Shown: piece by piece, positions 26,109 to 45,200 of the stretch
How the letters are laid out: every line of letters starts with the position of its first letter
Numbering within the stretch: position 1 is the first letter of the stretch
NCBI GenBank assembly: GCA_008477525.1
Contig: SPDT01000007.1
Span: 5,580,001-5,644,000, forward strand
DNA: 64,000 nucleotides
Direction of reading: 5' to 3'
DNA from: Hypomyces perniciosus
Lineage: Eukaryota; Ascomycota; Sordariomycetes; Hypocreales; Hypocreaceae
Made by a program: the position numbers and the translations under genes
Notes under the pieces: model-generated
Database searches by the model: none
Told to the model about the DNA's origin: nothing
The model's input: the letters and a program-made list of their open reading frames with translations, nothing else

Positions 26109-28714
26109 ATGAACTCTTTTCAAAATGCAGAGGTGTCTGGCAATGGAAAATTTCATTTGGGGAACAACTACAATGAGACTCACAATCACTACGCTTCGAA
26201 CCACGACCAATGCCTTGTGGACCTGCGTATAACCGACCCCCGTCAAGACAAGATGCGCATCGAGGAAACCAAGGGTCAGCTTTTTGAAGACTCCTACCTG
26301 TGGATTCTGGAAAATGATGAATTCCGACAATGGTGCAACGACGATTGCAGCCGACTTCCTTGGATAAAGGGCGACCCGGGCAAAGGAAAGACTATGTTAT
26401 TCTGCGGGATCATCAACGAATTAAAGAAGAAGACCACAAACTGTGTGTCGTTTTTCTTTTGCCAGGGCACCGACTTGCGCTTGAATAACCCAACGGCCGT
26501 GCTGCGTGGCCTCACATATGTTCTTGTCGACGAGCAGCCATCGTTGATGGATCATATGCAGGACAAGTACAAGAATGCAGGCCGAAGACTTTTTGAGGAT
26601 ACAAATGCCTGGTGGGCCATGTCTGAGATCCTTACCAACATTCTACATGACGAAAAAACTCCGGAGAACACCTTCCTGCTCATCGATGGACTTGATGAAT
26701 GCACGACGGATTTACCACGTCTTCTCGACTTCTTTATCAAGGATTCATCTAAATCATCTCGTGTGAAATGGATAGTTACTGGTCGAAATTGGCCAAATAT
26801 CGAGCAGCAACTAGACACAGCTGAACAAAAGGTGAAGCTGTGTCTTGAGTTGAATGAATCGTCTATCTCCGCGTCGGTTCGAAGATACATCGATCACAGA
26901 GTCGACAAATTAGCGCGACTGAAGAGCCTGGACGACAAAACCCGGCATGATCTTCAAGAGTATCTGTATTCCAACGCGAATGATACCTTCTTATGAATTT
27001 CACTCGTTTGCCAGGCCCTTGAGAAGCCCACAACATGGAACATTCTCGCTGAGGTACAGAAGTTCCCCTCTGGACTGGATTCCATTTACCAGAGGATGAT
27101 GGTGAATATTCGGGAATTGTGGGATGACAGCGACCTTTGCATGCACTTGCTCGGCCTCTTGACCGTTGTCTATCGTCCCATTTCTATAAGCGAACTGGTG
27201 ACATTTATCGATCTGTCGGAGGGTGTCCCTAAGAGCATCGATTCATTCAAGAAGGCCATAGCCCTTTGCGGATCGTTTCTAACCCTTCGAAATGATACAA
27301 TTTATTTTGTCCACCAAACAGCAAAAGATTTCTTACTTAGCCGGGCATCTGATCAAATGTTTTCTTCTGGGTTGCCAGCACAGCATCTACTTATTTTCTC
27401 CAGATCCCTTCGAGGGATGGCCAGGGCATTATGTCGTGATATGTACGGGTTGCGCCACCCTGGGTTCCCCATTGATCAAGTCACGGTGCCTGACCCAGAC
27501 CCATTGGCCCAAGCACGGTATTCGTGTGTTTATTGGGTCGACCATCTCGACGACGGGATTTCCCATACACCTCTGGACAACATCCACACAATTCACGAGG
27601 AAATATACGTATTTCTCAGCAAAAAGTACATATATTGGCTTGAGGCACTTGGCCTCATTCGTTCAATACCGGAAGGAATAGCAGCAATGTTGAAACTTGA
27701 ACAGTTAGTCGTATGTCTACTGTTCCCATTTCCGTACCCTCTTAAAAGCTAATCGATGCGCAATTAGACACCACCTACCCAAACTACCCTGGCCAAATAT
27801 GGACTCGTTCATCGGTGGCTAAAACGCCCACCAGCGGATGAATCCCTGGTGGATACCCGTCTATTCGACCTTGTTCAGGATGCTCAACGATTCATCTTCT
27901 CGTTTCGATGGGCGATAGAGAAGGCGCCACTTCGGGCGTATGCATCAGCACTTTTTTTCAGTCCCATTGAAAGTATCACAAGAAAGCTGTTCGAAGCGGA
28001 TGAGCCAGATTGGGCCACATTCAAATCGCCCCGGCCGCAATATTGGGGCCAGCATCGAGCGACGCTTGAGGGCCATAGCGAGGCTGTTGACTGTGTTGTC
28101 TTCTCACATGACGGAGACTTTTTAGCATCGGCTTCCAAGGATGCAACCATTAAGATCTGGAGTACTAGAACTGGGCCACATATAGCTATTGCAACGCTAA
28201 ATGGCGACAGAGAGCTAATTGAATCGTTGACATTTTCTCTCAAAGGGAAGTATTTGTTATCATGTTCGGCTAGTCAGTGGCGGTGTTGGTTTCGCCTCAA
28301 ACAACAGCGAAAGTTTATGGACACGATCAAGCAAGAACTTCAGGATTTGGGACATCAAGTCTGGTCATTGCCTGATGACATTTACACAGGCTTGGAAAAA
28401 TTCTGTTCACTGTGATCATTGTGATTTATCACCCATTAGCCACCGAGTCGCTGTCATCTCAGCGGACGGGACTACGCATGTCTGGGATGCTCTGACAGGC
28501 GGTTTTCGGGAAAACGATAGCGTTTGTCCTCAGGGCTTCACCAGTTTCCCACCTCACAAATGTGACAGTCTTCGCCTTTGGGACGCTGAAAAAAAAAAAC
28601 ATTTTAAGCTTGAAATTCACATCTGACTCTGTAGTGTTAGGAAAAGTGTTATTTTCTCCTAGTGGCCAGAGAATTGCTGCCGAAATATTCACTGGCCGTC
28701 ATCTGCGTCTTGTG
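26109..28714 (+). pseudogene. NACHT-WD40 NLR gene, N-terminal part, broken by nonsense, frameshifts and a hAT insertion
   Basis: Belongs to the NWD class (HET-E/HNWD-like STAND proteins). From 26109: a linker with GNNYNETHNHY typical just upstream of NACHT, Walker A KGDPGKGKT, Walker B FLLIDGLDE, then helical and winged-helix segments; an intron at 27711-27767; then WD40 repeats starting TLEGHSEAVDCVVFSHDG. Lesions: TGA at 26994-26996 where the family has Trp (FL*ISLVCQ, a TGG-to-TGA change); loss of frame near 28410; a second frame change at the A-run near 28590; and interruption at 28714 by hAT copy A. The last readable residues, TGRHLRLV, continue in the same frame as IWDAELGN at 38162. 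The upstream start is uncertain. Confidence 0.85.
28707..28714. repeat. Left (outer) 8-bp flank of hAT copy A, half of its original target duplication
   Basis: GTCTTGTG directly abuts the CAGG end of copy A. It is not repeated on the other side of copy A, whose right flank is TCGACAAC. Its partner is found at 38154-38161 as CTCTTGTG, one base changed. Confidence 0.85.
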
Positions 28715-31700
28715 CAGGCTGGCGATCCATTCCATTTCCATCCACGCAGCCTTAGCTGAGTGGATGGACGTCCATTTCAGTCAACGTGCAGTGGAATGGG
28801 TGGAATGGACGCCCAGAGCAGTCGCATGGAATGGATGGAAATGGAAATGGATGCGTGGATGGGGTTACCTAAATAGGAAAGGTATCGCGCTAATAGATTA
28901 GTTACTATATATAGTACTCACCACAGTCACTGTAACCATCTCAATGATCACCAAGCAACAAAATTCATTATACAGGATATCTCTCTTATTATACATAATT
29001 AAAACAAGCACTTTCTTAATGAGCCCAGGCTCTAGCCAGTGCGCTATAAATAAAGTCTAGAGAGGGATAGTACATACAATTCGCCCACCTGTTACTTCAC
29101 GAGCTTCTATAAAGCTCAGTTCGGCAAGCGGATCGGTATCCGATAACTCAACCTCTTCAAGAAGCTTCTCCACACTTCGAATATATCCCCCACGAAGCCA
29201 CGATCTCACCGTCTGCGTCATTCCAATTGTACTAGCATCCAGATTTGCCCGGTCATCTCGAACCATTCTGCCGGCCGTAGAGAAAAGTCTCTCAACGTCA
29301 GCAGACATTGGAAGAGTAGAAAGAACATCAAGGGCCATCCGTGATAGGCGAGGATATTCCTCCCGTCTGTCGCACCAATAGCTGATGGGATCCAGGATCC
29401 TCTGATCCGATTTATGTACGTCTCGAAACCAATCGTTATATTCATCTCCCACAGCTGACGAAGCAGGAGTGAATGGCGACTGTAATAATGCCGGCGCCTG
29501 ACGAGACTCCTCGCAGTACTCGTTGAAGGGATTTCGATAAGTTCGCTGCTTCTTCATAACCGGTTCTCGGTCTCGAGAAACGACCTGCGGATCGTATTGA
29601 GACCTATACAGCCCCTCCACAAGGGACTTTGCAGTCTGGATCCATTCTGGGCGATCTGCCCATATGTCCTCAAAGTATCCCCAACGATATGCTGGATGAA
29701 GCGCGACAGCTGCATAATAGACCGGTGTCTCATCAAGCCGCGAGTAGTACTCATCAAGTTTCTTCCAGCAGAGATTAATATTGACCTTGAAGTGCTCAGG
29801 GTCGGGATATCGATGAGCAGCGGCCTTATATACCTCCATTTTATTAAGCAGGTACTCGTAGCCAAACATAAGATCCCAAGAGCATCCATATGCTTTAGTA
29901 TAGCCATACTTTCGCATCCGCTGTCGACCGTCACCTTCAAGGGTAATTAAAACATGCTCAAAATGTTGGAGGACCTCGTTAAAAAGAGCGATAATATTCC
30001 AATCCTTCTCATCGAGTTTGTTGTCATCCCTGAGACAAAGTGGCATTTCACTCCTCGACTTCTTTCCCCTTAAAATTGACCCTTCCCACTCGTTTTTCTG
30101 CCTATACCAGAGTTCTTCAAGGAAGTCCTTCAGGAGAAGAGCGCGTCGGATCATGTAAAGAGTAGAAAGCCAACGAGTTACCACATCAGTAATGACATCT
30201 AGAGGCTTTTTTGCTTGTATTGTCGGATCCTCAGACTTCTCGAACGCGACCAACTGAAGAGACCGAAGGAGATTAGTTAGTAAGTCTGAACGATGAATCC
30301 AAACGACAAGGTTATGGAGTTTCCCAATAGGGCCTTTCCGTCTCCACATCTCATGGGCCTTCGCATTAAGCGCCTCATTTCCAAGGATATCATCCTCAAA
30401 TGCCTCAGAGTCATGGCCAAAAAGCAGCGCTTTAACAGCAAGATTAAGGATATGGCCAAAGCAGCGTAATCGCCGGGTTTCTCCCTTAAAGCCCAGCGCT
30501 TTTCCGATTTCCTTCATCGCTGTATCGTTGTTGCTGGCGTTATCAAGTGTAAAGTATCCGACCTTCTGGGTTATATCATAGCTCCGAAGGATATCGACAA
30601 CATGAGCAGCAATATTCTCCCCAGAATGACGATCGACAAGCTCTGGAAGTCCAAGGACAAGTTTTTGTGGCTGGCCAACGGTATCAAGAAAATAGCAAAC
30701 GATTCCATATAGAGCATGGCGATTATTCGACCTCCAGCCATCGAACGCTATGTGAATCAGCCCTGGGGCTGCCGCCAACACTCGCTTTATTTCCTCTATG
30801 TTTTCTTCGTACACCTTAAGGATGCGTCTGCGAACGGTATCGTGGGTGATATGTGCCTCGGTCGTCTTCACGAGGGGATTGAGGTACTCGAAAACTGCGC
30901 GGAGGTACGGATCTTCGCTTTGTCGGAAGGAGGAATTACTGTTGATGATCCAACAGACTACCAAGCGCTGGAAGGCTAATCGATCAAAACGGCCCATGAT
31001 CTGGTTGGCAATCTGCTGTTCTCGCGAGTTATATGTGTTCAGCTTCATCATCTCGGCGATATTCCTTGATGACGTATTCTCTTTTGCTTTACTTGGCGGC
31101 TTCCGCCTGCCTGAAGGATCCCAGATACTGTGGTCGGTCCAGAGGTGGATCTCTGCGTTCTGTGTGCCATTCGAGGCAGTCGAGTGAGGTTTTTGCTTAC
31201 TACTCTTTACGCAGACCTTGCAAACCCATCGCCGCTTTGTATCATCGTCGCTCTTCTCGATATCGTAACCGAATTGCCATATCCATGACGATATGGATGC
31301 GCAACGCTGGGATTGAGTATACCCAGGGAAGTATTTCCAAGGGAAAAGGTCCCACAGGTTCTCCTGGTCCTCCTGGGCCTGTATCTGAGGATGCATAGGG
31401 TTAATAAATTATGCTTATGGCGATTCCATTAATAAAAAATTCATATACGAAGTACATAAAACCCTTTCTCCTAATAGAAGTTCAACGCGCCTGAACGCGG
31501 TAACTAAGAACGCGAAATCTCCACGCTCCTGGCTACCAAAAAAAAAAAATCTTCCATAATCACTACTAACATATGTAAGAGCAAAATGTATAGTGATTTG
31601 TTAGTGGTGACTTAAGTTTAGCGTCCCTCTAGTTTTATACTAGGCTAAGTGATGCAGGTATTTTTATAGCTTAACTTGATGCGAAAACCTGACAGTTATT

Positions 31701-32132
31701 ACGGAGTACATAAATACAGTTTTTAAAAAAGATATTTATTATAATTGGAATAGAGTTGGCCTTTCTAGCAATATACTAAAATATATATAATAAGATTCAT
31801 TTCTCTCTATATAGCTATATATTAAATGCATATAGATTTAGTTTCGTTTACCTACTCTTCCAATGATATATAGGGTATGTTGGCGGAGGGTCAGGTAGAA
31901 CAAGCACGGAGTCTCTGGTAATGATGTCACTGACTTGGGCAATGGTAAGTATACTATTTTAGGGTGATGATTAAGCGCCCCCCTGCTTCCATTTCCATCC
32001 ACGGGACCCTTCCGTGGATGGATGGATTATGTAATGGCAGGCGCGATGGAATGGATGGAAATGGATGCACGGGCCATCCATTTCCATAAATGGACGCCCG
32101 TGGAAATGGACGTGGAATGGATCGCCACCCTG
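28715..32132 (-). mobile_element. hAT transposon, copy A (3418 bp, minus orientation)
   Basis: Full-length element ending CAGGCTGGCGATCCATTCC at the 3' (left) side and, read inward, CAGGGTGGCGATCCATTCC at the 5' (right) side, so imperfect terminal inverted repeats differing at base 5. Both subterminal regions (about 150-200 bp) are packed with TGGAATGG / ATGGAAATGG and GTGGATGG units, the kind of arrays hAT transposases bind. It carries one transposase gene. Copy B at 38825-42242 has the same length, and every open frame I compared is identical. The flanking octamers do not match each other (GTCTTGTG left, TCGACAAC right), which is abnormal for a simple insertion. Confidence 0.95.
29057..31396 (-). 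CDS. hAT-family transposase (copy A), 779 aa
   Basis: Cut-and-paste DNA transposase. N-terminal BED-like zinc finger (C59, C62, H84, H89), then an RNase H-fold catalytic core: first Asp in HIAFDGW (219), second Asp in FTLDNASNN (285), the hAT CFGHILNLA motif (312-320), an all-alpha insertion domain, and the C-terminal hAT dimerisation block (about 680-745: LSTLPMSADVERLFSTAGR), which contains the third acidic residue region. Single uninterrupted frame with no stops; likely active or recently active. Identical in sequence to the protein at 39561-41900. Confidence 0.95.
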   Translation of the reverse strand: MHPQIQAQEDQENLWDLFPWKYFPGYTQSQRCASISSWIWQFGYDIEKSDDDTKRRWVCKVCVKSSKQKPHSTASNGTQNAEIHLWTDHSIWDPSGRRKPPSKAKENTSSRNIAEMMKLNTYNSREQQIANQIMGRFDRLAFQRLVVCWIINSNSSFRQSEDPYLRAVFEYLNPLVKTTEAHITHDTVRRRILKVYEENIEEIKRVLAAAPGLIHIAFDGWRSNNRHALYGIVCYFLDTVGQPQKLVLGLPELVDRHSGENIAAHVVDILRSYDITQKVGYFTLDNASNNDTAMKEIGKALGFKGETRRLRCFGHILNLAVKALLFGHDSEAFEDDILGNEALNAKAHEMWRRKGPIGKLHNLVVWIHRSDLLTNLLRSLQLVAFEKSEDPTIQAKKPLDVITDVVTRWLSTLYMIRRALLLKDFLEELWYRQKNEWEGSILRGKKSRSEMPLCLRDDNKLDEKDWNIIALFNEVLQHFEHVLITLEGDGRQRMRKYGYTKAYGCSWDLMFGYEYLLNKMEVYKAAAHRYPDPEHFKVNINLCWKKLDEYYSRLDETPVYYAAVALHPAYRWGYFEDIWADRPEWIQTAKSLVEGLYRSQYDPQVVSRDREPVMKKQRTYRNPFNEYCEESRQAPALLQSPFTPASSAVGDEYNDWFRDVHKSDQRILDPISYWCDRREEYPRLSRMALDVLSTLPMSADVERLFSTAGRMVRDDRANLDASTIGMTQTVRSWLRGGYIRSVEKLLEEVELSDTDPLAELSFIEAREVTGGRIVCTIPL

Positions 32133-32140
32133 TCGACAAC
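32133..32140. repeat. 8-bp target duplication TCGACAAC, copy next to the 5' end of hAT copy A
   Basis: Immediately outside the 5' terminus of copy A. The only partner is the identical octamer at 38817-38824, next to the 5' terminus of copy B. The two therefore bracket the 6.7 kb inner segment rather than either element. Confidence 0.9.
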
Positions 32141-33115
32141 TAATATACGGCGCGCTGATCTTGAATTATTTAGCCACTAAACCGTCGATTGAGTTCTGAG
32201 AGCCGATCGCACTGCCACCACGTGAGTATTTTATAGAGGACATAAGGAACCGAGATAAATCCCATCCAAAACGGACCATCAGTGCCAAGTCATGCGGCCG
32301 GCCGGGGAGCGCTGGCCGACTCGGCAACGTGCCAGGTAGGCAGACCCGCTCCTTCACTGTCCCCTAGATGCTCAGCTCCATAGCAGTCACAAGTGTAGCG
32401 AGAAGCCAACGCATTGCCACACCCCATATAAGCCGTTATGGTGTATCCCCGAAATGGCCGAATCATCGTTCTCCCTGCCACCCCACAGGACGTACAGGTT
32501 AGCGTGCAAAGTCTCGATCGAACCGTCGACCGATCTATGTTCGAGTATTGCTCAGCATAAAACCCTGATACAAGCTTTGTAAGCACACTGTAAAGGCCTC
32601 CAAGCCAGAATCGAATGTCTACTACTAGTACTACTACTAGTACTACCCGTTGGCGTGGAACCTTCGGGGACACTACACTCTACAAGGATCAAATACATGG
32701 ATAGCAAAACGAAAGAGCTCTAGCAGGCCATTATCATTAATTGGCTCATAGAGACGAGGACATCTGCCAATGGGTGGCTCTTTATGGCGGTTCTATCACA
32801 GTTACGCTGATCTTGAGTTGATCAAGTTGTTGTACTTTGCTACGCATGCATTCTACATACAGCAAGAGGATTGTTCGTTCAGCCACGTGCTGAGTAAAAG
32901 CGGGTAGTAATACTAGTAAAATAAGTCCTTGTGGGATAACAAGATACTATCTAGTACTACCTTAGTACTAGTATAGGTAGTGTTTGATGACAACAGGGAG
33001 CGGCCGCCCTTTACCTATCTCTCTCCATTGGCGAGTCATTACCAATCAACAAGTTCCACTGCAAATTATCATCACATCATACTCACGATTCGGATTCGGA
33101 CGAACCCCCTGATCC
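32141..33115. other. Intergenic, no gene seen
   Basis: Promoter side of the Zn2Cys6 regulator. Holds ACTACTAGT microsatellites near 32620-32645 and 32905-32980. Before the rearrangement inferred here this sequence followed directly on 38824. Confidence 0.5.
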
Positions 33116-34887
33116 ATGAAGATGCAAGAAATGCCCGCGTCCACCGAAAGAAAAGCTGAACGGACATGTCGGTACTGTCGCGTCCGCAAGCAGCGATGCG
33201 ACAAGACCCTCCCGCGGTGCTCACGCTGTGTCTCGTACGTTTATTTACTGCGCTTCACCCCAGCCGACTAAAGCTTTGCTGACCCTTGTGATGGTGAGGA
33301 CAGAAAACTCGTCAAATGCGATTACAGCGAGGAGCTGCCAACAGCAGCAAGCCTGGTCACGGAGATCACGCGAGTTGAGCCCCTTGCTATCCTCCAAGAC
33401 TTCTGTCGTCTTGACCTCACATCTACTGGGGAGCAGCGGCTTCTGCGGGCTGCATGTGGAGGCCATGAATCGTCTGGGAGCATCGTGGAGACCGAGCAAT
33501 CATTAACACGCCTAGTCAAAGAAATACTCGCCACTGGTGGTACTTCCTTCAATGGAGTATCCAATGCTTACTTCACAACCGCTCGTGACTGGATACCCAT
33601 TCTCAACGAGGCAAAAGTCAATGCCAATGTCAGGGTCCTGGACGAAGGCGCGAAATACTCCGATGACGTCTTTTCACTGTTGCTGTTATGCATGTTCATC
33701 CTAACACGACCACTCTGCGACCACCCAAACCACGGGGCCAAGAACGCACTCTATCGTACCACTAGACGGTTGTTCCTCATTATCGAGACATCTACTCAGG
33801 CTTCGTTGCTCACTCGGTTGCAAGCTGGTCTGTTCTTGGCCGCCTACGAGTGTGGGCATGGCCTTTTCACCGAGGCAAGCACAACGCTGGCGATGTGTTT
33901 TGGTCTCGCGCGACAAATAGACATTACCGACATGCAAGACGCTGAATCCGAGACGGATCGAAATTTATGCTGGTTTGGCATCATCTTTCTTGATCGGTGA
34001 GCTTTCACGTATAGGTGCCTTTAACAACGAATTGACATCTAACCACAAAAGCGACAGGGCAATTGCTCTATCAAATATTAACAGCAGTCCCTCCTTGCTG
34101 ATTCCTTCATCCCAGTTTCTACCACTCAATGCTGCCCCAAAGATTCCCAAATTAGACTGGACTAATATGAGCATTGTCGAAAAGTTCAGTAAAAGGGCAT
34201 ACACTGCTCTAATTCTGGGCGATACAATAGCCACTGTCTTTGGTGACCCATATTCCCCGGATTGCGCAGCGGCAGAGAAGGCGCTTCATGAGTTGATACG
34301 CCAACACGTTGAGAGTGCACCAGGCGAATCATATCCCGTATGCGAAGGTCTTTCCATGGCTCTCAGGTACGGCAATGTTCTCTCTGTTTATCATCACAGA
34401 CTCGAGGGAGACTGAGGTTTGAAGCAGTGCTGTAGTCTCGGCCTACAAGAAAAGGACTCAACGCCACGGTCTTTCAGAAGACCCTAAACTGGCTCTTGAC
34501 ATCAAATTTACCCACAACATAGTTTTTGACATGTGCAGAGTGGAAGGGAGTCTAATGTGGAATCGGGATACGCGTCTTGGGAGGATATTTTTCTCGTGTT
34601 TGAGTTGCCTTTACCACGCTGCGGTGGAATTGAATGAGATATGCCCGGATAGGGCGTTGCCTGAGGATCTTGAACAACTCAGGGATAACTTGGCATGGTT
34701 TTCTAGAAACTGGAAAGTAGGAGGTAAGACTCACACTCATGAAGGCTCATTTGTTGTAGATGCAGAGACTAATGGTGAACAGAAGTGTTATTACAACGCC
34801 TGGACCGGAACAGTCGGTTACGGACAATATCATAGAGCTCCCCATGATTATATAGCTAAGACAGTAGCCGCAATCCTGCAGAGCTAG
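33116..34887 (+). CDS. Fungal Zn(II)2Cys6 transcription factor
   Basis: Nuclear DNA-binding regulator. Exons 33116-33234, 33304-33996, 34052-34366, 34428-34723 and 34766-34887 give 1545 bases, 514 residues. The binuclear cluster is canonical: C18-x2-C21-x6-C28-x6-C35-x2-C38-x6-C45, with intron 1 splitting the last loop. The middle homology region follows (about 150-330: LQAGLFLAAYECGHGLFTEASTTLAMCFGLARQI, with the typical DRAIALS motif after intron 2). No leucine zipper is evident after the cluster. Neighbours inside the permuted segment are a LINE relic, a TIR element and the dehydrogenase gene. Whether it regulates the dehydrogenase is not shown. Confidence 0.9.
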
Positions 34888-35129
34888 CATGCACTGCGTA
34901 TATTAATAATATTACATTTGATAGCGTGTGGGTTATTGAGTTTGTGTCATAGAATACTACTGAACTGCCAAGTAGACATTGAGTCGAGGAACCGAAGCGC
35001 GTAGTCCGTATCTTCTTCTATCAGGTACTACGGAGTACGGAGTACTTCGTCCTGCATTTGCGCCGATCCTTACAGGGGTCGGCCGCTCCCCTGCTAGTAC
35101 AGAATGGAATGAAAGTCTAAAAACCTGGG

Positions 35130-35450
35130 CTTTAGTTTAGGCAGGGGGGTGCTAGTGCTCCTATCTTAGCGAGTTTGTTGGCGGTTTTGCTGGCTAGCAT
35201 GTCTTTTTATGTCCTAGAACTTGCGAAACGAATACCCTGTAAGGGGCCAGTTCCTTTACGACCTTTTAAAGGCAGAGGAATTTCATTTGCGAGGAGGCAA
35301 GCACCTCGCTAAAGAGTCCTTTAACTACAGAGGTGTTGTCTAGGAAAATGTAGATGTCTTCAACCCGAGGGTCTTCAGCCTTAAGATTAGTTTTCGCTAG
35401 GTCCGCTACTATCTTGATAGCCTTAGTGGTCCCTTGGCTTCCGCGTTAAA
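35130..35450 (-). pseudogene. Non-LTR retrotransposon relic: RNase H domain fragment
   Basis: On the minus strand a frame reads DIYIFLDNTSVVKGL, followed after a stop and a +1/-1 shift by MLASKTANKLAKIGALAPP. This matches the order of the RNase H domain that ends the polyprotein of Tad/I-like fungal LINEs (IYIFLDN... then ...GNE.AD.LAK.GA). Only about 320 bases survive, with at least one stop and one frameshift. No reverse transcriptase or poly-A tail was recognised nearby. Confidence 0.6.
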
Positions 35451-35824
35451 TACCCATAAGTTTGCAGGGGTTTTATATTTTGTTTAAGCTTTGGTGTTAT
35501 AATACCCGTTGGTGGGTCCTCTGGAAACCAACTAAAAGGACTTCGCCTTTAAGTTGGACACAAAATTCGTGAGCCACCGCAAAAATCGAGCCACCTACTT
35601 ATTATGCGGATAACTTCTATTTCTATTGAAGCAATTTCTATTATAAAAACCAGAGAAATATATAATTTTATGCAGTATTATATATAAAACTTAAACTATT
35701 GCTTTAGTATTATTCTAGATTATCCTTTATAGTATACTAAACAGCTATTTACTGCTCCTCCTATATAAACCTAGCTAGTATATTATTACTATCTTTATCG
35801 CGAAAAGGCCTAGGATATATATTA

Positions 35825-35950
35825 TCAGTCTCTTCGTTAATATCTTCGCCAATCTCTTCGTCAGTCTCTTCGTCAGTTGCTTTATCAGTTACTTCGTCAG
35901 TTGCTTCGTCAGTTGCTTCGTAGGTCGCTTCGTCGTCAGTTAGTCTCTTC
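35825..35950 (-). repeat. 12-base minisatellite inside the TIR element, encodes a Thr-Asp-Glu run on the minus strand
   Basis: About ten imperfect copies of a CTTCGTCAGTTG/CTCTTCGTCAGT unit. Read on the minus strand in one frame they give TDEATDEATDEVTDKATDEE-type repeats. The unit length is a multiple of three, so the acidic frame is kept open. No larger gene around it could be established. Confidence 0.7.
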
Positions 35951-36228
35951 TTAATAAGGGAGTCGTATTATCGTTCAGAAAGGCTCGTGGCTGCCTAGGA
36001 GAGGTCATTTTCTTCGTTTGTGAGAGCTCGGAGCCACCGGAAAGGGGGGAGAACGAGATTGACGGCATGAATAAAAAAGGGCTTTCAAATACCTAGGCAA
36101 CAAGGGCAAAAGCAATCAGTTAATATAGCTGTTGCAGCTTAAAAGAGGTGATTTGCATTGCAATAATAGTATAGAGTGATAGAGTATGTGTTGGATAACG
36201 TGGATTGGTGGAAAAAGCCCGATGAAGA

Positions 36229-36406
36229 AAACACGAAGGAGATTACGATGTGGAACTCAAGGAGGACCTAAAAGGGTGGAGAAGAAGAACGCGACTCGTT
36301 CTTCTAGCACTATAAATTGGCTGGCGAGGAAACTATCAGAGACACGGAGGACAGTTCCACGGACATCAGAAGCAGGAAAAACAAAGCTGGAATTCAGGTG
36401 CCTTTT
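36229..36406 (+). repeat. Relic sequence shared with 42826-42998
   Basis: Roughly 80 percent identical by eye to the second locus over about 175 bases, including GATGTGGAACTC, GGTGGAGA.GAAGAACG, CACTATAAATT and GGAATTCAGGTGCC. Both reading frames are interrupted. One copy lies inside the TIR element, the other outside, so it may be the degraded coding part of the parent element. Identity unknown. Confidence 0.6.
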
Positions 36407-36812
36407 GACCCGTATAGTGAAATGAATGTACTGACTATACGATCCGCTCTACGCGACATTTACGTAAAGGTCTAGGTGGCTCGATTTTTGCGGTGGCTCA
36501 CGAATTTTGTGTCCAACTTAAAGGCGAAGTCCTTTTAGTTGGTTTCCAGAGGACCCACCAACGGCTATATGATGGCCCCTTAGCTATCTAGCCTGTGGGC
36601 GGGGGGTGGGCTCTGTCGAGGCCAGCAAGATAGGGCGCCACTAGAATGAACACTCATCCGTGGAATCCGAGTCTTATAAGCAAGCAGATCATTTGTAATA
36701 GGCGATGGATTACAAATATTAGCAATTCGATGAAGATATAACGACTGGCCGCTCCTCCAACCACAAACTCAGAATAACCAAGCTCATTTACATCCTGACA
36801 ATATCTCCTCTC

Positions 36813-38140
36813 ATGAATTCTTTAGAACCAACAAAAAACATGCCTGAAACACGAAGAGTTCTTCGAAGGGACGGAGACTCTGGGGTTCGGTTCGCCGAAG
36901 AACCCATTCCTGCTCGTGGGACGTCAGATGTGTTGATTCGCGTCCATGCTGTATCATTAAACTACAAAGACGTAGCAAGCACGGATGGTCGGTTTCCTTG
37001 GCCATCGTTGACCAATGGTTTGCTTGGAACCGAGTTTGCAGGGGAAATCATCTGGGCGGGCGAGAAGGTTCAGCTTTTTGAGGTAAAGAATCCTCTGTCG
37101 GTTATTGGCTTTATTGTAGCACCACCACTTACACCGTTAGGTTGGCGATAGAGTTATTCCTCTTATCAACCTACATGGCATTACGGGACGGGAGTCTTCA
37201 CTTCAGGGCAAGTCTTGCCTTTTCCCTGTCTCCGCGACTAACATGCATCATCGCTAACATGGATTTAGTCTTGGGTCTCAATGTCGATGGGACTCTAGCC
37301 GAATATCTTGTCATGCCAGAGAGCGCCCTTGTCAAGATTCCAGAGCATTTGACATGGGCCGAGGTTAGTTTAAACTGATTGACTGTCTTCATTATGACTC
37401 ATCTCACTCGCCATAGGCAAGTATGCTAGCATGTGCGGGCATGACAGCCTGGACAGCCCTCAACATGACTTCCCGTCTATTCGGAAAGACGGTGCTTATC
37501 GAAGGTGAGAATCTTACGACGGTGACTTAGAATGAAAAAATAATTGACGATATAACAGGCACTGGTGGTGTGAGCATTGTTGCCCTTGTCCTTGCTGTTA
37601 AAGCCGGAGCTACAGCGATTGTTACGTCCTCGTCTGATGAGAAGCTTGAACGAGCGAAGAGACTTGGGGCCTCGCATGTCATAAATTATAAACGAACTCC
37701 TGACTGGGATGCAGAGGTCTTAAAACTCACTGATGGTTTGGGAGTCGACATTGTGATTGAGCAGGGAGGAGCTTCGACACTGGCTAAGAGCATGGCCAGT
37801 GTGAAGCGACTTGGTCAAGTGTCGCAAGTTGGATTTCTGTCCGACAAAGGCGAGGCCGACCTGTTACCCATAGTTCAGATGCTGATCACGAAGTCATGCA
37901 GCATTGTGTAAGTTTCCCGGTCCTATTCTTGGAGGAAATTGGATATCTGTTAACACCATGTTTAGGGGCATTCAGGTTGGGGCGAAGAGGGATCTGGAAG
38001 AATTCCTCGATTGTCTAAGTCTGGCCAAGGTAAAACTGGATTCATGCATTGATCGTTCGTTTACTTTCGACCAGGCTCCAGAGGCATTCGATTATCTGCG
38101 CCACCAGAGTGCCGTTGGAAAAGTGGTTATTGAATTCTGA
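36813..38140 (+). CDS. Medium-chain (zinc-type/quinone) alcohol dehydrogenase-like oxidoreductase
   Basis: NAD(P)H-dependent oxidoreductase of the MDR superfamily. Exons 36813-37082, 37141-37207, 37269-37363, 37417-37504, 37559-37907 and 37966-38140 give 1044 bases, 347 residues. GroES-like N-terminal half (VRFAEEPIPARGTSDVLIRVHAVSLNYKDV; no catalytic-zinc Cys-His pair at the usual place, more like quinone-oxidoreductase-type members), then the Rossmann half with GTGGVSIVALVLAVKAGA and SSSDEKLERAKRLGASHVINY. The intron after 37207 uses a GC donor (AGG|GCAAGT); only this donor keeps QVLGLNVDG in frame. The stop is five bases before the hAT footprint at 38146, so its native 3' flank has been replaced. 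Confidence 0.92.
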
Positions 38141-38145
38141 TGGTA

Positions 38146-38161
38146 TATCGAGGCTCTTGTG
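38146..38161. other. hAT excision footprint / circle joint
   Basis: TATCGAGGCTCTTGTG. The left half equals the outer flank of copy B (TATCGAGC at 42243) except for the last base; the right half equals the outer flank of copy A (GTCTTGTG at 28707) except for the first base. The two changed bases are adjacent, and both are changed to their complement (CG to GC). This is the signature left when hairpinned donor ends are reopened after hAT excision. Confidence 0.88.
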
Positions 38162-38683
38162 ATATGGGATGCCGAACTTGGCAACTGCTTGGCGAGTCTT
38201 GAACACCGTGGACTGCCAACACTCTACACCTTCTTTTCAGATGATCGATATTTCGCCTCAGCTTCAGATCGAAGTATTCAAATCTGGGATATTTCAACGG
38301 GCTGCTGTCACGCAACCCTGGCAATAGGGAACTGGCTTCACAAGATCCGTTTCAACGAGTCTGGCACAAGCCTGGTTACCGATGTTGGGACTTTCGATAT
38401 AATGGCCTATCTCTCTCAGCCATCTTCATCAACAGTGGTTACCGAAACTACTCTTTGCCGGAGTTACCAAGGCCTCAGCATTAGCACTGATAGCACATGG
38501 ATCATGTATCGGGGTAAAAACCTCCTGTGGTTTCCTATCGAGTATCGCCGCCGAAAGGTGAGCTTTGTGGGAGGATCTATACTTTTATTTTATCTATATG
38601 ATGATTTCGTTGACGCGATGGTCCACATTCGAAGGGATTGTTCAATCATCACAATTCTCCATTCTCCTAACATAACGTTCTAG
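38154..38683 (+). pseudogene. C-terminal WD40 part of the broken NACHT-WD40 gene
   Basis: Open frame without its own start: LVIWDAELGNCLASLEH, then SASDRSIQIWDISTGCC, then a terminal blade YQGLSISTDSTWIM...LLWFPIEYR, which is the usual end of NWD proteins (GISSDG.WI...LWLPPEYRP). The first codons CTT GTG overlap the footprint and take up exactly where the N-terminal part stops at 28714 (RLV then IWD, same frame, mid-repeat). Ends at TAG 38681-38683. It now lies directly behind the dehydrogenase gene, ten kilobases from its N-terminal half. Confidence 0.88.
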
Positions 38684-38816
38684 ATAGACCTCAACAATAT
38701 TACAACGAATCTACTGCTCATGCTGATGGCTTAGAAACTTTCCAAATAAATGCAATAGATTAGGATATTCTAATAGCTGTCTATTCATCATTGCTGGAAC
38801 AGCCAAGACAAACGCG

Positions 38817-38824
38817 TCGACAAC
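38817..38824. repeat. 8-bp target duplication TCGACAAC, copy next to the 5' end of hAT copy B
   Basis: Identical, in the same strand orientation, to 32133-32140. Together they mark the insertion of two element ends into a single TCGACAAC site that lay within the segment now found between the elements. Confidence 0.9.
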
Positions 38825-41800
38825 CAGGGTGGCGATCCATTCCACGTCCATTTCCACGGGCGTCCATTTATGGAAATGGATGGCCCGTGCATCCATTTCC
38901 ATCCATTCCATCGCGCCTGCCATTACATAATCCATCCATCCACGGAAGGGTCCCGTGGATGGAAATGGAAGCAGGGGGGCGCTTAATCATCACCCTAAAA
39001 TAGTATACTTACCATTGCCCAAGTCAGTGACATCATTACCAGAGACTCCGTGCTTGTTCTACCTGACCCTCCGCCAACATACCCTATATATCATTGGAAG
39101 AGTAGGTAAACGAAACTAAATCTATATGCATTTAATATATAGCTATATAGAGAGAAATGAATCTTATTATATATATTTTAGTATATTGCTAGAAAGGCCA
39201 ACTCTATTCCAATTATAATAAATATCTTTTTTAAAAACTGTATTTATGTACTCCGTAATAACTGTCAGGTTTTCGCATCAAGTTAAGCTATAAAAATACC
39301 TGCATCACTTAGCCTAGTATAAAACTAGAGGGACGCTAAACTTAAGTCACCACTAACAAATCACTATACATTTTGCTCTTACATATGTTAGTAGTGATTA
39401 TGGAAGATTTTTTTTTTTTGGTAGCCAGGAGCGTGGAGATTTCGCGTTCTTAGTTACCGCGTTCAGGCGCGTTGAACTTCTATTAGGAGAAAGGGTTTTA
39501 TGTACTTCGTATATGAATTTTTTATTAATGGAATCGCCATAAGCATAATTTATTAACCCTATGCATCCTCAGATACAGGCCCAGGAGGACCAGGAGAACC
39601 TGTGGGACCTTTTCCCTTGGAAATACTTCCCTGGGTATACTCAATCCCAGCGTTGCGCATCCATATCGTCATGGATATGGCAATTCGGTTACGATATCGA
39701 GAAGAGCGACGATGATACAAAGCGGCGATGGGTTTGCAAGGTCTGCGTAAAGAGTAGTAAGCAAAAACCTCACTCGACTGCCTCGAATGGCACACAGAAC
39801 GCAGAGATCCACCTCTGGACCGACCACAGTATCTGGGATCCTTCAGGCAGGCGGAAGCCGCCAAGTAAAGCAAAAGAGAATACGTCATCAAGGAATATCG
39901 CCGAGATGATGAAGCTGAACACATATAACTCGCGAGAACAGCAGATTGCCAACCAGATCATGGGCCGTTTTGATCGATTAGCCTTCCAGCGCTTGGTAGT
40001 CTGTTGGATCATCAACAGTAATTCCTCCTTCCGACAAAGCGAAGATCCGTACCTCCGCGCAGTTTTCGAGTACCTCAATCCCCTCGTGAAGACGACCGAG
40101 GCACATATCACCCACGATACCGTTCGCAGACGCATCCTTAAGGTGTACGAAGAAAACATAGAGGAAATAAAGCGAGTGTTGGCGGCAGCCCCAGGGCTGA
40201 TTCACATAGCGTTCGATGGCTGGAGGTCGAATAATCGCCATGCTCTATATGGAATCGTTTGCTATTTTCTTGATACCGTTGGCCAGCCACAAAAACTTGT
40301 CCTTGGACTTCCAGAGCTTGTCGATCGTCATTCTGGGGAGAATATTGCTGCTCATGTTGTCGATATCCTTCGGAGCTATGATATAACCCAGAAGGTCGGA
40401 TACTTTACACTTGATAACGCCAGCAACAACGATACAGCGATGAAGGAAATCGGAAAAGCGCTGGGCTTTAAGGGAGAAACCCGGCGATTACGCTGCTTTG
40501 GCCATATCCTTAATCTTGCTGTTAAAGCGCTGCTTTTTGGCCATGACTCTGAGGCATTTGAGGATGATATCCTTGGAAATGAGGCGCTTAATGCGAAGGC
40601 CCATGAGATGTGGAGACGGAAAGGCCCTATTGGGAAACTCCATAACCTTGTCGTTTGGATTCATCGTTCAGACTTACTAACTAATCTCCTTCGGTCTCTT
40701 CAGTTGGTCGCGTTCGAGAAGTCTGAGGATCCGACAATACAAGCAAAAAAGCCTCTAGATGTCATTACTGATGTGGTAACTCGTTGGCTTTCTACTCTTT
40801 ACATGATCCGACGCGCTCTTCTCCTGAAGGACTTCCTTGAAGAACTCTGGTATAGGCAGAAAAACGAGTGGGAAGGGTCAATTTTAAGGGGAAAGAAGTC
40901 GAGGAGTGAAATGCCACTTTGTCTCAGGGATGACAACAAACTCGATGAGAAGGATTGGAATATTATCGCTCTTTTTAACGAGGTCCTCCAACATTTTGAG
41001 CATGTTTTAATTACCCTTGAAGGTGACGGTCGACAGCGGATGCGAAAGTATGGCTATACTAAAGCATATGGATGCTCTTGGGATCTTATGTTTGGCTACG
41101 AGTACCTGCTTAATAAAATGGAGGTATATAAGGCCGCTGCTCATCGATATCCCGACCCTGAGCACTTCAAGGTCAATATTAATCTCTGCTGGAAGAAACT
41201 TGATGAGTACTACTCGCGGCTTGATGAGACACCGGTCTATTATGCAGCTGTCGCGCTTCATCCAGCATATCGTTGGGGATACTTTGAGGACATATGGGCA
41301 GATCGCCCAGAATGGATCCAGACTGCAAAGTCCCTTGTGGAGGGGCTGTATAGGTCTCAATACGATCCGCAGGTCGTTTCTCGAGACCGAGAACCGGTTA
41401 TGAAGAAGCAGCGAACTTATCGAAATCCCTTCAACGAGTACTGCGAGGAGTCTCGTCAGGCGCCGGCATTATTACAGTCGCCATTCACTCCTGCTTCGTC
41501 AGCTGTGGGAGATGAATATAACGATTGGTTTCGAGACGTACATAAATCGGATCAGAGGATCCTGGATCCCATCAGCTATTGGTGCGACAGACGGGAGGAA
41601 TATCCTCGCCTATCACGGATGGCCCTTGATGTTCTTTCTACTCTTCCAATGTCTGCTGACGTTGAGAGACTTTTCTCTACGGCCGGCAGAATGGTTCGAG
41701 ATGACCGGGCAAATCTGGATGCTAGTACAATTGGAATGACGCAGACGGTGAGATCGTGGCTTCGTGGGGGATATATTCGAAGTGTGGAGAAGCTTCTTGA

Positions 41801-42242
41801 AGAGGTTGAGTTATCGGATACCGATCCGCTTGCCGAACTGAGCTTTATAGAAGCTCGTGAAGTAACAGGTGGGCGAATTGTATGTACTATCCCTCTCTAG
41901 ACTTTATTTATAGCGCACTGGCTAGAGCCTGGGCTCATTAAGAAAGTGCTTGTTTTAATTATGTATAATAAGAGAGATATCCTGTATAATGAATTTTGTT
42001 GCTTGGTGATCATTGAGATGGTTACAGTGACTGTGGTGAGTACTATATATAGTAACTAATCTATTAGCGCGATACCTTTCCTATTTAGGTAACCCCATCC
42101 ACGCATCCATTTCCATTTCCATCCATTCCATGCGACTGCTCTGGGCGTCCATTCCACCCATTCCACTGCACGTTGACTGAAATGGACGTCCATCCACTCA
42201 GCTAAGGCTGCGTGGATGGAAATGGAATGGATCGCCAGCCTG
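38825..42242 (+). mobile_element. hAT transposon, copy B (3418 bp, plus orientation)
   Basis: Same length, termini and subterminal TGGAATGG arrays as copy A, in opposite orientation. 5' terminus CAGGGTGGCGATCC at 38825; the 3' end finishes GGATCGCCAGCCTG at 42242. Flanks are TCGACAAC (left) and TATCGAGC (right), again not a matched target duplication. Confidence 0.95.
39561..41900 (+). CDS. hAT-family transposase (copy B), 779 aa
   Basis: Protein identical to that of copy A at 29057-31396: BED-like finger (C59, C62, H84, H89), catalytic Asp 219 and 285, CFGHILNLA, C-terminal dimerisation block. Intact frame. The 5' leader within the element is about 736 bases, the 3' flank about 342. Full identity between the copies implies recent transposition or gene conversion. 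Confidence 0.95.
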   Translation: MHPQIQAQEDQENLWDLFPWKYFPGYTQSQRCASISSWIWQFGYDIEKSDDDTKRRWVCKVCVKSSKQKPHSTASNGTQNAEIHLWTDHSIWDPSGRRKPPSKAKENTSSRNIAEMMKLNTYNSREQQIANQIMGRFDRLAFQRLVVCWIINSNSSFRQSEDPYLRAVFEYLNPLVKTTEAHITHDTVRRRILKVYEENIEEIKRVLAAAPGLIHIAFDGWRSNNRHALYGIVCYFLDTVGQPQKLVLGLPELVDRHSGENIAAHVVDILRSYDITQKVGYFTLDNASNNDTAMKEIGKALGFKGETRRLRCFGHILNLAVKALLFGHDSEAFEDDILGNEALNAKAHEMWRRKGPIGKLHNLVVWIHRSDLLTNLLRSLQLVAFEKSEDPTIQAKKPLDVITDVVTRWLSTLYMIRRALLLKDFLEELWYRQKNEWEGSILRGKKSRSEMPLCLRDDNKLDEKDWNIIALFNEVLQHFEHVLITLEGDGRQRMRKYGYTKAYGCSWDLMFGYEYLLNKMEVYKAAAHRYPDPEHFKVNINLCWKKLDEYYSRLDETPVYYAAVALHPAYRWGYFEDIWADRPEWIQTAKSLVEGLYRSQYDPQVVSRDREPVMKKQRTYRNPFNEYCEESRQAPALLQSPFTPASSAVGDEYNDWFRDVHKSDQRILDPISYWCDRREEYPRLSRMALDVLSTLPMSADVERLFSTAGRMVRDDRANLDASTIGMTQTVRSWLRGGYIRSVEKLLEEVELSDTDPLAELSFIEAREVTGGRIVCTIPL

Positions 42243-42250
42243 TATCGAGC
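42243..42250. repeat. Right (outer) 8-bp flank of hAT copy B, half of its original target duplication
   Basis: TATCGAGC follows the 3' terminus of copy B. Its partner is TATCGAGG at 38146-38153, one base changed, just behind the dehydrogenase stop codon. Sequence from 42251 on is therefore inferred to be the native downstream flank of the dehydrogenase gene. Confidence 0.85.
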
Positions 42251-45200
42251 AGAGGCAGCTGCTCTTCCTTGACGAAGGGTCTTGACAGCTTCATGCTGCC
42301 CGAGGAAGATTGCATTTTCATTCTCATAAGGTGTATTTGCCGTTTTATACACTATTTTCTAGAAGGCATTCGATAATTTCCATCTAGTCGCTGCATACTT
42401 TATTGTGAAGGGGATTCACGTGTGATTTGCGTCGAGACAGTAGACGACCGCGCCACAGGTAATCAATCCCTACATGAGGCAAGCAAACACTTTCTGTGAC
42501 GCTTTATGTGTGGTCTTTTTTGCTCAAACTTTGTCGTCTAGGTGACCCTTAGTTCGTATACTGGTTAACACTTGAACCATTACTCACTGCTGGCGGTGCG
42601 CGGCGAGGTGAAGCTCTCTCTTCACTCTCAAGATCAATGAATTTCGGTCCAATCTGATAATTCACGAAATCGTCATATCCTAAAAGCAAAGATACCATAT
42701 ACTAGGAAGTTGTTTTCCAGAGTTTAGTCCAAAGATGTTTTGACCTGTGTGTTTTCCCAACTTGCATCTAGCTGCTCCTATCGGATAATATGGATAAGCA
42801 ATTGGGTTGGAAAACTCGGATAATGGTGAAACGAAGGAAATTGCGATGTGGAACTCGAGGAAGGCCTAAAGAGGTGGAGAGGAAGAACGTGTCGCGTTCT
42901 TCAGGCACTATAAATTTGCTGTCCTGGAAACTATCAGTGTTACAGACAAGAAGCGGAAGCAGAGACGTCAGAGAGATGAAGAGAGATGGAATTCAGGTGC
43001 CTATTATCATTCCTTAAGCTCCGAGCATGTGACGGCTAACTCCATAAGCCCCAATTACGCAACAGCTCCTCTCACACCGGATCTGGTTCTCTCTGTCGTA
43101 ACAGGGATACAGTGAACTCATGGCCATGTCAAGCCGCCCATGAGTGAGCTTTCTCCCTTTCCTGTTCTGTTAGTTGACTTCTGCATATGCTTGCAGCGCT
43201 GTTCTGGTTACCGTGACAAGAGTGTCGACCTGTCAAGGCAGCCCAAGACGAAGGAGTCATCCCAAACTCGTCTTCGACTTTAAATTCAGGAGAGACTCTA
43301 CTGATATATGCTTTAAATATCCCTTTTGTCAGTTCAGGCGGCTGAAGATTGGAAATCGCCAAGTCTTTCGCAGCCAGAAGGCCCTGACAAAGACATCAGC
43401 TTGACAACATCTACTTCGACGACCAGGAGTGATCACCCTTTGGGCCTTCAGACAAGTACATGAAGTTCTGTGGCTCAATGCTGACAAGTATAATTCTAGG
43501 ACTGGCTAGCTGCTGGAAGTTGTTCCACATTCAAGCATTAGCACTTTTGCCAAAGTTGCTCGCTAACTCCCAGCACTTCTAAGTTTTGGATAAAGAGCTG
43601 GACGAGACCCTGAGTTCTGCACTGCCTATAGTCATATCTGCGTGAGCGAAGTTGTATTTTGTCTTATGTCTCTCTAGTCGAGAACTTGAACACAATATTA
43701 TTTTGCCAAGCGTTAAGCGGTATCTCATGCTAGCGGGTGACTCAATGGTGAGGATCTTGGTGCCAGTATCTGTTGATTGAATGAAGCTGGCGTTGAGGTG
43801 AGGACTGAACATGTCAATATATGTTGCTCGCCTGTCGTATGTTGGACTGTTAGCAGTTCATGGGTAGCTACTGTGCTTGGTTACTCCATTGTCCATATAT
43901 TGACTATACTAATGAGTTTTCGCGTCATTTACGTTTCGCAATGGTACCATGACTCACCTTCCTGATTACTCTAGAAGGTTTATGTACACTACGAAATCAA
44001 AAAAGACAGTGAACAGAAGAGTTTGGAAATTTAATTAAAAGTACCAACGATCCAACTTGTGACAGAATTGCGAATGCGATTTAGACGCACTGGAGCAAAA
44101 GTGCTGAGGTGATGATGCTCACAACTTAAGCCCAGAGGCAGGAGGATTGTAGCGAAAATTAAAGGTTCGAAGCGAAGTGAAGCGAAATACCGACATAGAT
44201 GAACAATTCAACATGCGGTTAATATATTCCACGAAGATAAGACTTGCGCAATACAATGATGTCGCGATGCTGCTCGCTTCTAACACCACTTCCAGTCATC
44301 TACAGATAAACACGACAGGTCTACGCGGAACCTTTCATTTATCACTTTTAAGACAATTGCCACGAAACCACCCTAGCAGCTCTACATCCACGAAGTATAT
44401 CGCACATTACCCTGGATTGCCTGAATTCGTTCCATGAAAAAGTCCTCGATTGCTTCACTATTCACTGATCAAGTTTGATACCATGTAACATATGCCTAAA
44501 GAAATACCACGCACGCATAATTTAATCACCGATTTACCCCTCCAAGTAAAGCTGAAATCCAGGGTCTCGGTAAATGGTGATGGTCTAGTCTGGCTCCTTG
44601 AAGTTTTAAGTTGGTGGTGTGCTAAAGTGAGTTTCGTCTCGTCTTTTAGTCGTATCAAGCGAGCGTAACGATCTATGCCATCTATCACAAATCATCTCAA
44701 TTGCAAAACATGCAAAGAATATGATAGAAAAAGTCCCCAGTCTCACTAGGGTGTGAACAAATTAAGAGGAAGTCCACCTTCAAGATCCCCAGCGTCTTGA
44801 TGTGCAGGGTCTCACGGAAATTGAACAGGGGGAGACTCTGATGCAAAAGACTCCTTCCATCCTCAGAATGCGGCTGGTGATATCCCTGGGAAATTATATT
44901 CTGCATCTTATAGTCCAAGGGCTATACTATAAGACCTTGGTTTTAGAAGCAGGGTTCGGGAAGTGCGTCATTTACTTCATACCGCGGATCTGATTTGCCA
45001 AGAGAATTCTGGAGCAGAGTCTCGCTTTCATCGGCCACTTAAACTTTGCGACACTAACTCGTGCGACCAAAGAAACCCTGTTGCGGTGCTGATGTCCCTT
45101 CTAGGTCAAACGGTCCGAAGCCAATACAACCGAGTCATGGGAGTGACGAAAGACCAGGGTATCAGAAGTCATGTGCGGAGTGTATGCTTCGGTCTACAGC

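Follow-up and report, generated by a model that had tools for sequence, protein, structure and literature searches.

Circular permutation of a fungal gene segment, very probably by alternative transposition of two facing hAT ends

Reversed-ends transposition (RET) of maize Ac/Ds elements has been defined by the joint use of one 5′ and one 3′ end (in the defining passages of PMC3744419 and PMC8225341), and the elements concerned are directly oriented, with their 5′ and 3′ ends facing each other (same passages of PMC8225341). Inversions that arise by recombination carry no new target duplication, which provides a distinguishing test (PMC8225341, in part). Permutations of a 13-kb segment have already been isolated in maize (as mentioned in PMC3470690, citing Zhang and Peterson, 2004), so that permutation by RET is not merely a predicted outcome, as the initial annotation of the locus described here had stated. 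This locus lies in a window of 64 kb (C4:5580001-5644000) from the 44.0-Mb, 23-contig genome assembly of Hypomyces perniciosus, where two inverted copies of a hAT transposon, A and B, enclose a segment that carries two genes and the tail of a third. We propose that the segment was very probably permuted when the facing ends of the two copies inserted into it in a single alternative transposition. The evidence comes from one genome assembly and concerns a single event of this kind.

Copy A (3418 bp; 28715..32132, + strand) and copy B, which has the same sequence (38825..42242, − strand), form a 3418-nt inverted repeat that is 100% complementary, with zero differences, and are separated by 6692 nt. 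The L end is defined as the hAT end at 28715 (CAGGCTGG...) and the R end as the opposite end, the one lying 5′ of the transposase gene (CAGGGTGG..., reading inward); in both copies the R end points inward and the L end outward, so that the facing ends are both R and the outer ends both L. The transposase open reading frame of A (29057-31408, − strand) is open over 783 codons, counted from stop to stop, and the frame of B (39549-41900, + strand) is likewise open. A Pfam profile search detected the hAT C-terminal dimerisation domain in the transposase (PF05699, E 2.5e-14), and the BED zinc finger profile (PF02892) scored E 0.0055 and 17.1 bits, under its cut-off of 20.6. The best 120 of 416 transposase relatives include proteins of Zarea fungicola (86% identical) and Fusarium oxysporum (81%) and several that are named restless-like. 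The terminal inverted repeats are short, the L and R ends sharing an imperfect repeat of 27 bp (24/27 alike, 89%), and an exact 8-bp target duplication of their own surrounds 29 of the 41 two-ended copies in the genome. By its sequence, the family is classed as a Restless-like member of the hAT superfamily. It looks young throughout: each of the 30 copies that were compared has between 0 and 4 differences from the majority sequence. A minority base at position 2281 of the copy alignment is common to A, B, L001, and L006 (that is, to 2/28 of the other compared copies), and A and B may thus be sister copies. The motif ATGGA/TCCAT, which was picked by eye, occurs 10 times in the terminal 200 bp of the L end and 11 times in that of the R end, compared with ~0.6 times per 200 bp in the interior of the element; since both ends are rich in the motif, a synapse of two R ends is plausible.

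Neither A nor B has a target duplication of its own. The octamer that adjoins the L end of A is GTCTTGTG (28707..28714, + strand) and the octamer that adjoins the L end of B is TATCGAGC (42243..42250, + strand), each of which is taken to be one half of the original target duplication of its copy. The two R ends are instead flanked by the same octamer, TCGACAAC, exact and in direct repeat, at 32133..32140 (+ strand) beside A and at 38817..38824 (+ strand) beside B, as expected for the two copies of one target duplication. Both outer octamers recur within the segment at 38146..38161 (+ strand), where TATCGAGg is followed by cTCTTGTG, the sequence reading TATCGAGG CTCTTGTG; the order of the octamers at this joint is that expected if the former inner flanks were joined, the left flank of B to the right flank of A. 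The initial annotation had reported the lack of matched duplications around the two copies and the common octamer at their inner (5′) ends, both of which are borne out by the flanking octamers. It had also reported a fusion of the outer octamers at 38146-38161, which is correct in place and order and inexact in sequence: each octamer is retained at 7/8 positions, and the two bases at the joint are replaced by their complements (the last of the first octamer C to G, the first of the second G to C).

Complemented bases of this kind are the change that hAT excision leaves behind, so the inexact fusion strengthens the case, and the joint appears to be a typical hAT excision footprint. The hAT transposases Hermes and Kat1 form hairpins on flanking DNA (PMC4763223, in the portion that treats their chemistry). 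From this chemistry and from Ac and Tam3 footprints, we infer that the base exchange seen at the joint would result if the hairpin lay one base into the flank and were opened beyond the tip. For reversed Ac/Ds ends in rice, a section of PMC3470690 presents two clear circle-joint sequences in which the matching flanks are separated by two base pairs that do not match.

The joint is also difficult to obtain by chance. Its 7+7 core matches at 14/14 positions at 38146 and at 10 at most anywhere else in the interior; when the interior was shuffled 2000 times in two-base chunks and scored in the same way, any base being allowed at the two joint positions, no shuffle reached 14 and two reached 13. 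A search of the 44-Mb genome (both strands) for the exact fusion TATCGAGCGTCTTGTG with up to two mismatches gave 26 places, compared with 14 for a backwards-pattern control; one of the 26, on C3, is closer (one mismatch), and both mismatches fall at the joint only at 38146. At this genome density, a single strand of the interior should contain ~0.002 near-matches. Within the window, the joint is the sole match at three or fewer mismatches, which is a weak test, at least one match being found in 36/100 shuffles. An exact search of the genome for the fused octamers in reverse order found none. The target duplications of this hAT family show weak base preferences only, and TCGACAAC is not singled out by them.

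A further line of evidence comes from the NLR gene (NACHT/WD40, HET-E-like) that is now split by copy A. Its N-terminal and upstream WD40 part (26109..28714, + strand) ends at the outer end of A, and its C-terminal WD40 part (38162..38683, + strand), which in the present order begins 22 bp past the stop codon of a dehydrogenase gene, continues both the frame and the blade that are broken at 28714. When 28714 is joined to 38162, a 246-codon open frame results, with 73 codons before the junction and 173 after it, and the junction falls in the middle of a WD40 blade (VLFSPSGQRIAAEIFTGRHLRLV before it, IWDAELGNCLASLE after it). In a profile search, the left half alone had no WD40 match; the joined piece matched better than the right half, E improving from 2.2e-6 to 2.8e-8 for the THOC3 propeller and from 9.6e-5 to 8.1e-7 for WDR3, while a few weak propeller models were almost unchanged. 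Across the junction, 119 of 120 NLR homologues align with at least 30 residues on each side (the best 120 of 2014 with E ≤0.001, among 7989 scored), and these relatives are drawn from many ascomycete orders. Because WD40 repeats align loosely, frame and blade phase are weighed above this count of homologues. The region 26109-26993 matches the profiles NPHP3_N (E 4.8e-36) and NACHT (E 2.4e-15), and the best named NLR match is from Fusarium falciforme (52% identical). An in-frame stop (26994-26996) and frame changes (27750-28540) are present in the gene upstream of A, and the gene may therefore have been a pseudogene already before the insertion.

Four features are given by the sequence itself: a target duplication on two R ends, outer octamers left unpaired, a joint with a footprint, and an NLR frame that stays open across the break. 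The following course of events would account for them. At the start, the inverted copies, each with an open transposase frame, would have been located within the NLR gene (A, target GTCTTGTG) and behind the dehydrogenase gene (B, target TATCGAGC). Transposase would have paired the facing R ends of A and B and cut at both, and the excised 6.7-kb segment would have had its flanks joined end to end to give the joint with its two exchanged bases. The R ends, which had remained on the chromosome arms, would then have inserted with an 8-bp stagger at TCGACAAC inside the excised segment, making the chromosome continuous again with the segment circularly permuted and the NLR gene split in two. The former order would have been NLR start, NLR tail, TCGACAAC site, Zn2Cys6 gene, and dehydrogenase gene; in the present order, the NLR start is followed, between the two copies, by the Zn2Cys6 gene, the dehydrogenase gene, and the NLR tail. 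The attribution to a single event, the placing of joining (and with it a putative free ring) ahead of insertion, and the ancestral arrangement at the two intergenic junctions are deductions. As identical inverted repeats, A and B are able to flip the interior, whose present orientation is thus not diagnostic, and the interior could have been flipped since the event. Flanks stay on their native type of end in such a flip, and TCGACAAC lies on two R ends; the insertion at TCGACAAC is thus read as the work of two R ends, regardless of later events. In living cells, this hAT transposase can probably bring together two ends of the same kind, namely two R ends.

A different order of steps, given the same R-R event, is possible though less favored: the R ends would have attacked a linear, hairpin-capped segment, and the broken arms would later have been joined at 38146 without any ring. 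The final sequence would be identical, and the joint is the product expected from end joining of two hairpin ends; by the same token, no sequence difference can favor this order over joining first. In rice, PCR has recovered a circle joint made from reversed Ac/Ds ends, which shows that circles arise in a related system (PMC3470690, in the section on those products). Versions of the event that involve sister chromatids were considered by reasoning only and were set aside, as they give duplication or deletion and not permutation without extra copies.

Homologous recombination between hAT copies, or a misassembly, might instead have shuffled the flanks of ordinary insertions, and this alternative was weighed against a survey of hAT ends in the genome. 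The survey comprised 48 entries with 89 ends, whose adjoining flanks were taken as octamers; it took in ends with at most one mismatch from the end patterns, plus those from a copy search that scored 40/57 candidates. Orphan ends were compared with at most one mismatch allowed, and comparisons of the right type were set against those of the wrong type. Twelve of the 41 two-ended copies lack their own duplication: A and B, four copies that form two swapped pairs, and six without a partner. Among 31 orphan ends there were five right-type matches, all exact, namely four L-R matches, which belong to the two swapped pairs, and one R-R match, that of A and B, the only match between like ends; none of the 453 wrong-type comparisons matched. 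In the swapped pairs, C22:1918410/2537613 (L016/L015, ~619 kb apart) and C23:2859772/2896322 (L025/L024, ~33 kb apart), the L and R octamers are exactly exchanged, and these pairs are interpreted as inversions by recombination between hAT copies. Recombination thus occurs in this genome; however, both it and misassembly leave each flank on the type of end at which it was born, and had TCGACAAC received a normal insertion, one copy of the octamer would lie on an L end and one on an R end, whereas here both are on R ends. Moreover, GTCTTGTG is carried only by A and TATCGAGC only by B among the 48 entries, and recombination cannot make the footprint joint. This explanation is consequently very unlikely. 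The proposal of the initial annotation, that the inward ends were excised together, the old ends joined, and the paired ends reinserted at TCGACAAC, fits every base tested and outlived this rival.

The six partnerless two-ended copies, whose flanks are unmatched, are located at C14:1838342, C8:2700095, C8:146180, C5:3538497, C9:1170750, and C8:2599994; deletions between direct copies or a deletion-type alternative transposition would do equally for these. Seven further single ends, two of them from a fused pair on C9, have no partner in the survey. In that pair (C9:850486-857174; L055-L057), the L ends of two copies are fused in a head-to-head arrangement, with 117 and ~10 L-end bases lost and 15 bp exactly shared at the joint, and the outer R flanks are unlike each other. 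The fused pair is possibly an abortive like-end (L-L) event, and microhomology joining is as likely.

The existence of this pair lends some substance to another scheme, which begins with the insertion of a fused double element (R..L-L..R) at TCGACAAC; recombination of this element with A and B would have followed, and finally its excision from between the two blocks. Several more events would be needed, the C9 pair is without a target duplication, and transposition by two R ends would be required all the same, which makes the scheme a very improbable one. An ordinary L + R reversed-ends transposition of direct elements, followed by a flip of B in place, would yield a textbook case of the maize type. 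Such a flip by way of the 27-bp terminal repeats leaves hybrid ends, whereas at each of the three positions that distinguish L from R, position 5 included, B has a pure R end and a pure L end, so that a crossover would have to be confined to the first four bases; save for a non-homologous flip of the whole element, this history is excluded, and we consider it scarcely credible. Coincidence between the octamers of two unrelated insertions is negligible, even with one unrelated exact match among the 1758 site pairs described below, given the chance of ~1.5e-5 that two given octamers, here those of a facing pair, match at 8/8 positions, a joint score that was unreached in the shuffles, and the continuous NLR frame.

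Several observations weigh against the proposed transposition of two R ends. Only one R-R case was found among the 41 two-ended copies. A wider octamer survey that included copies with their own duplications (60 sites, 1758 site pairs, both orientations) gave, besides four one-mismatch matches, one extra exact match, between the ordinary insertions C8:3438997 and C4:746139, whose octamers are reverse complements of each other and which both have their own duplications; it is due either to chance or to a common target. Since such a survey can yield a stray exact match, the case of A and B is built on the facing, adjacent position of the ends together with the joint. Among the ancestral junctions, only that in the NLR gene can be tested by coding sequence, and WD40 repeats are so repetitive that homologues spanning it are weak evidence when taken alone; the other two of the three, both intergenic, are drawn from octamer logic alone. 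A search of the genome for a second copy of the three ancestral junctions (28-30-base patterns, ≤3 mismatches) found none. Finally, Hermes with two left ends is inactive in insect cells, and its two-left-end complex is antiparallel (PMC10368747, in part), so that transposition by like ends would be unexpected from the best studied relative. Two right ends of Hermes lie parallel (PMC10368747, same part), and the use of two R ends is, in view of both arrangements, notable but not absurd.

The proteins encoded in the window are of ascomycete type, with hypocrealean best named matches. The permuted segment carries a Zn2Cys6-type transcription factor gene (approximate bounds 33166..34887, + strand), recognized from its translation and from a Fungal_trans match (PF04082, E 2.2e-5) in 33272-34000; its Zn2Cys6 cluster, CRYCRVRKQRCDKTLPRCSRC, was recognized by eye in the translation, and a Pfam search of the cluster region (33120-33503) gave no match. 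A zinc-type alcohol dehydrogenase gene (36813..38140, + strand; start and exons approximate) matches ADH_zinc_N (E 7.8e-24) and ADH_N (E 4.8e-7), and the C-terminal part of its product aligns to solved dehydrogenases; its stop codon (38138-38140) is located five bases ahead of the joint. Also within the segment is an element of ~1.07 kb with 96-bp inverted ends (35502-36568), which has many partial relatives in the genome, and a dispersed repeat, 77% alike, occurs both in the segment (36207-36348) and to the right of B (42805-42946).

In maize, permutations by reversed-ends transposition have come from loci that carry genetic markers; the case described here is natural, fungal, and base-complete and appears to use the like (R-R) ends of inverted elements. 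With its clean footprint and the 41 copies as an internal control, it would illustrate how two neighboring DNA transposons can rewrite gene order without loss. If the proposed event is real, inverted neighboring copies, which are outside the Ac/Ds definition of RET, become agents of gene shuffling, able to excise the intervening DNA and to open it anew at an 8-bp site in its interior. The three-part signature of unpaired outer octamers, a like-end duplication, and a footprint joint can be searched for in any assembly. Like-end use bears on the choice of partner ends by hAT transposases, and an element with cooperating R ends makes end asymmetry testable. Among the titles and abstract beginnings listed in searches of a collection of open-access literature, neither a hAT permutation in a fungus nor a natural like-end case was found; a paper on the blast fungus that matched the phrase reversed-ends transposition contains it in its reference list only. 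A non-standard transposition in a filamentous fungus is described for impala, a member of another superfamily (Tc1/mariner), in Fusarium oxysporum (Hua-Van et al., 2002, as cited in passages of PMC8225341 and PMC1952172).

Other known rearrangements share single features with the locus. Ectopic recombination, as in the two inversions in this genome, also leaves hAT copies without their own duplications; unlike the event proposed for A and B, it swaps L-R duplications and makes neither a new duplication nor a footprint joint. The head-to-head pair on C9 resembles the fused Ac/Ds ends that abortive reversed-ends transposition produced in rice (PMC3470690, in part) and differs from them in its junction, where the two copies have 15 bp exactly in common and L-end bases are missing. 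The closest parallel is maize Ac/Ds RET, in which the facing ends of two nearby hAT elements move together and generate a new 8-bp duplication, and whose outcomes include permutations, insertion into the excised segment being implied and not spelled out in the relevant passages (for both points, PMC3744419, PMC4270019, and PMC3470690). A and B agree with RET in lacking duplications of their own, in having facing ends with one new 8-bp duplication, and in the joining of the old flanks with a footprint. They depart from it in that both ends are R (the 5′ side of the transposase gene), where RET pairs a 5′ with a 3′ end, in that the elements are inverted and not directly oriented, and in that the locus is natural and fungal rather than a marked maize locus. 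The assignment to reversed-ends transposition of the Ac/Ds type made by the initial annotation consequently stands for the way in which the permutation would have come about and not for the ends used. The proposed mechanism is RET-like and, as it does not combine a 5′ with a 3′ end, is best called a like-end variant rather than RET in the strict sense.

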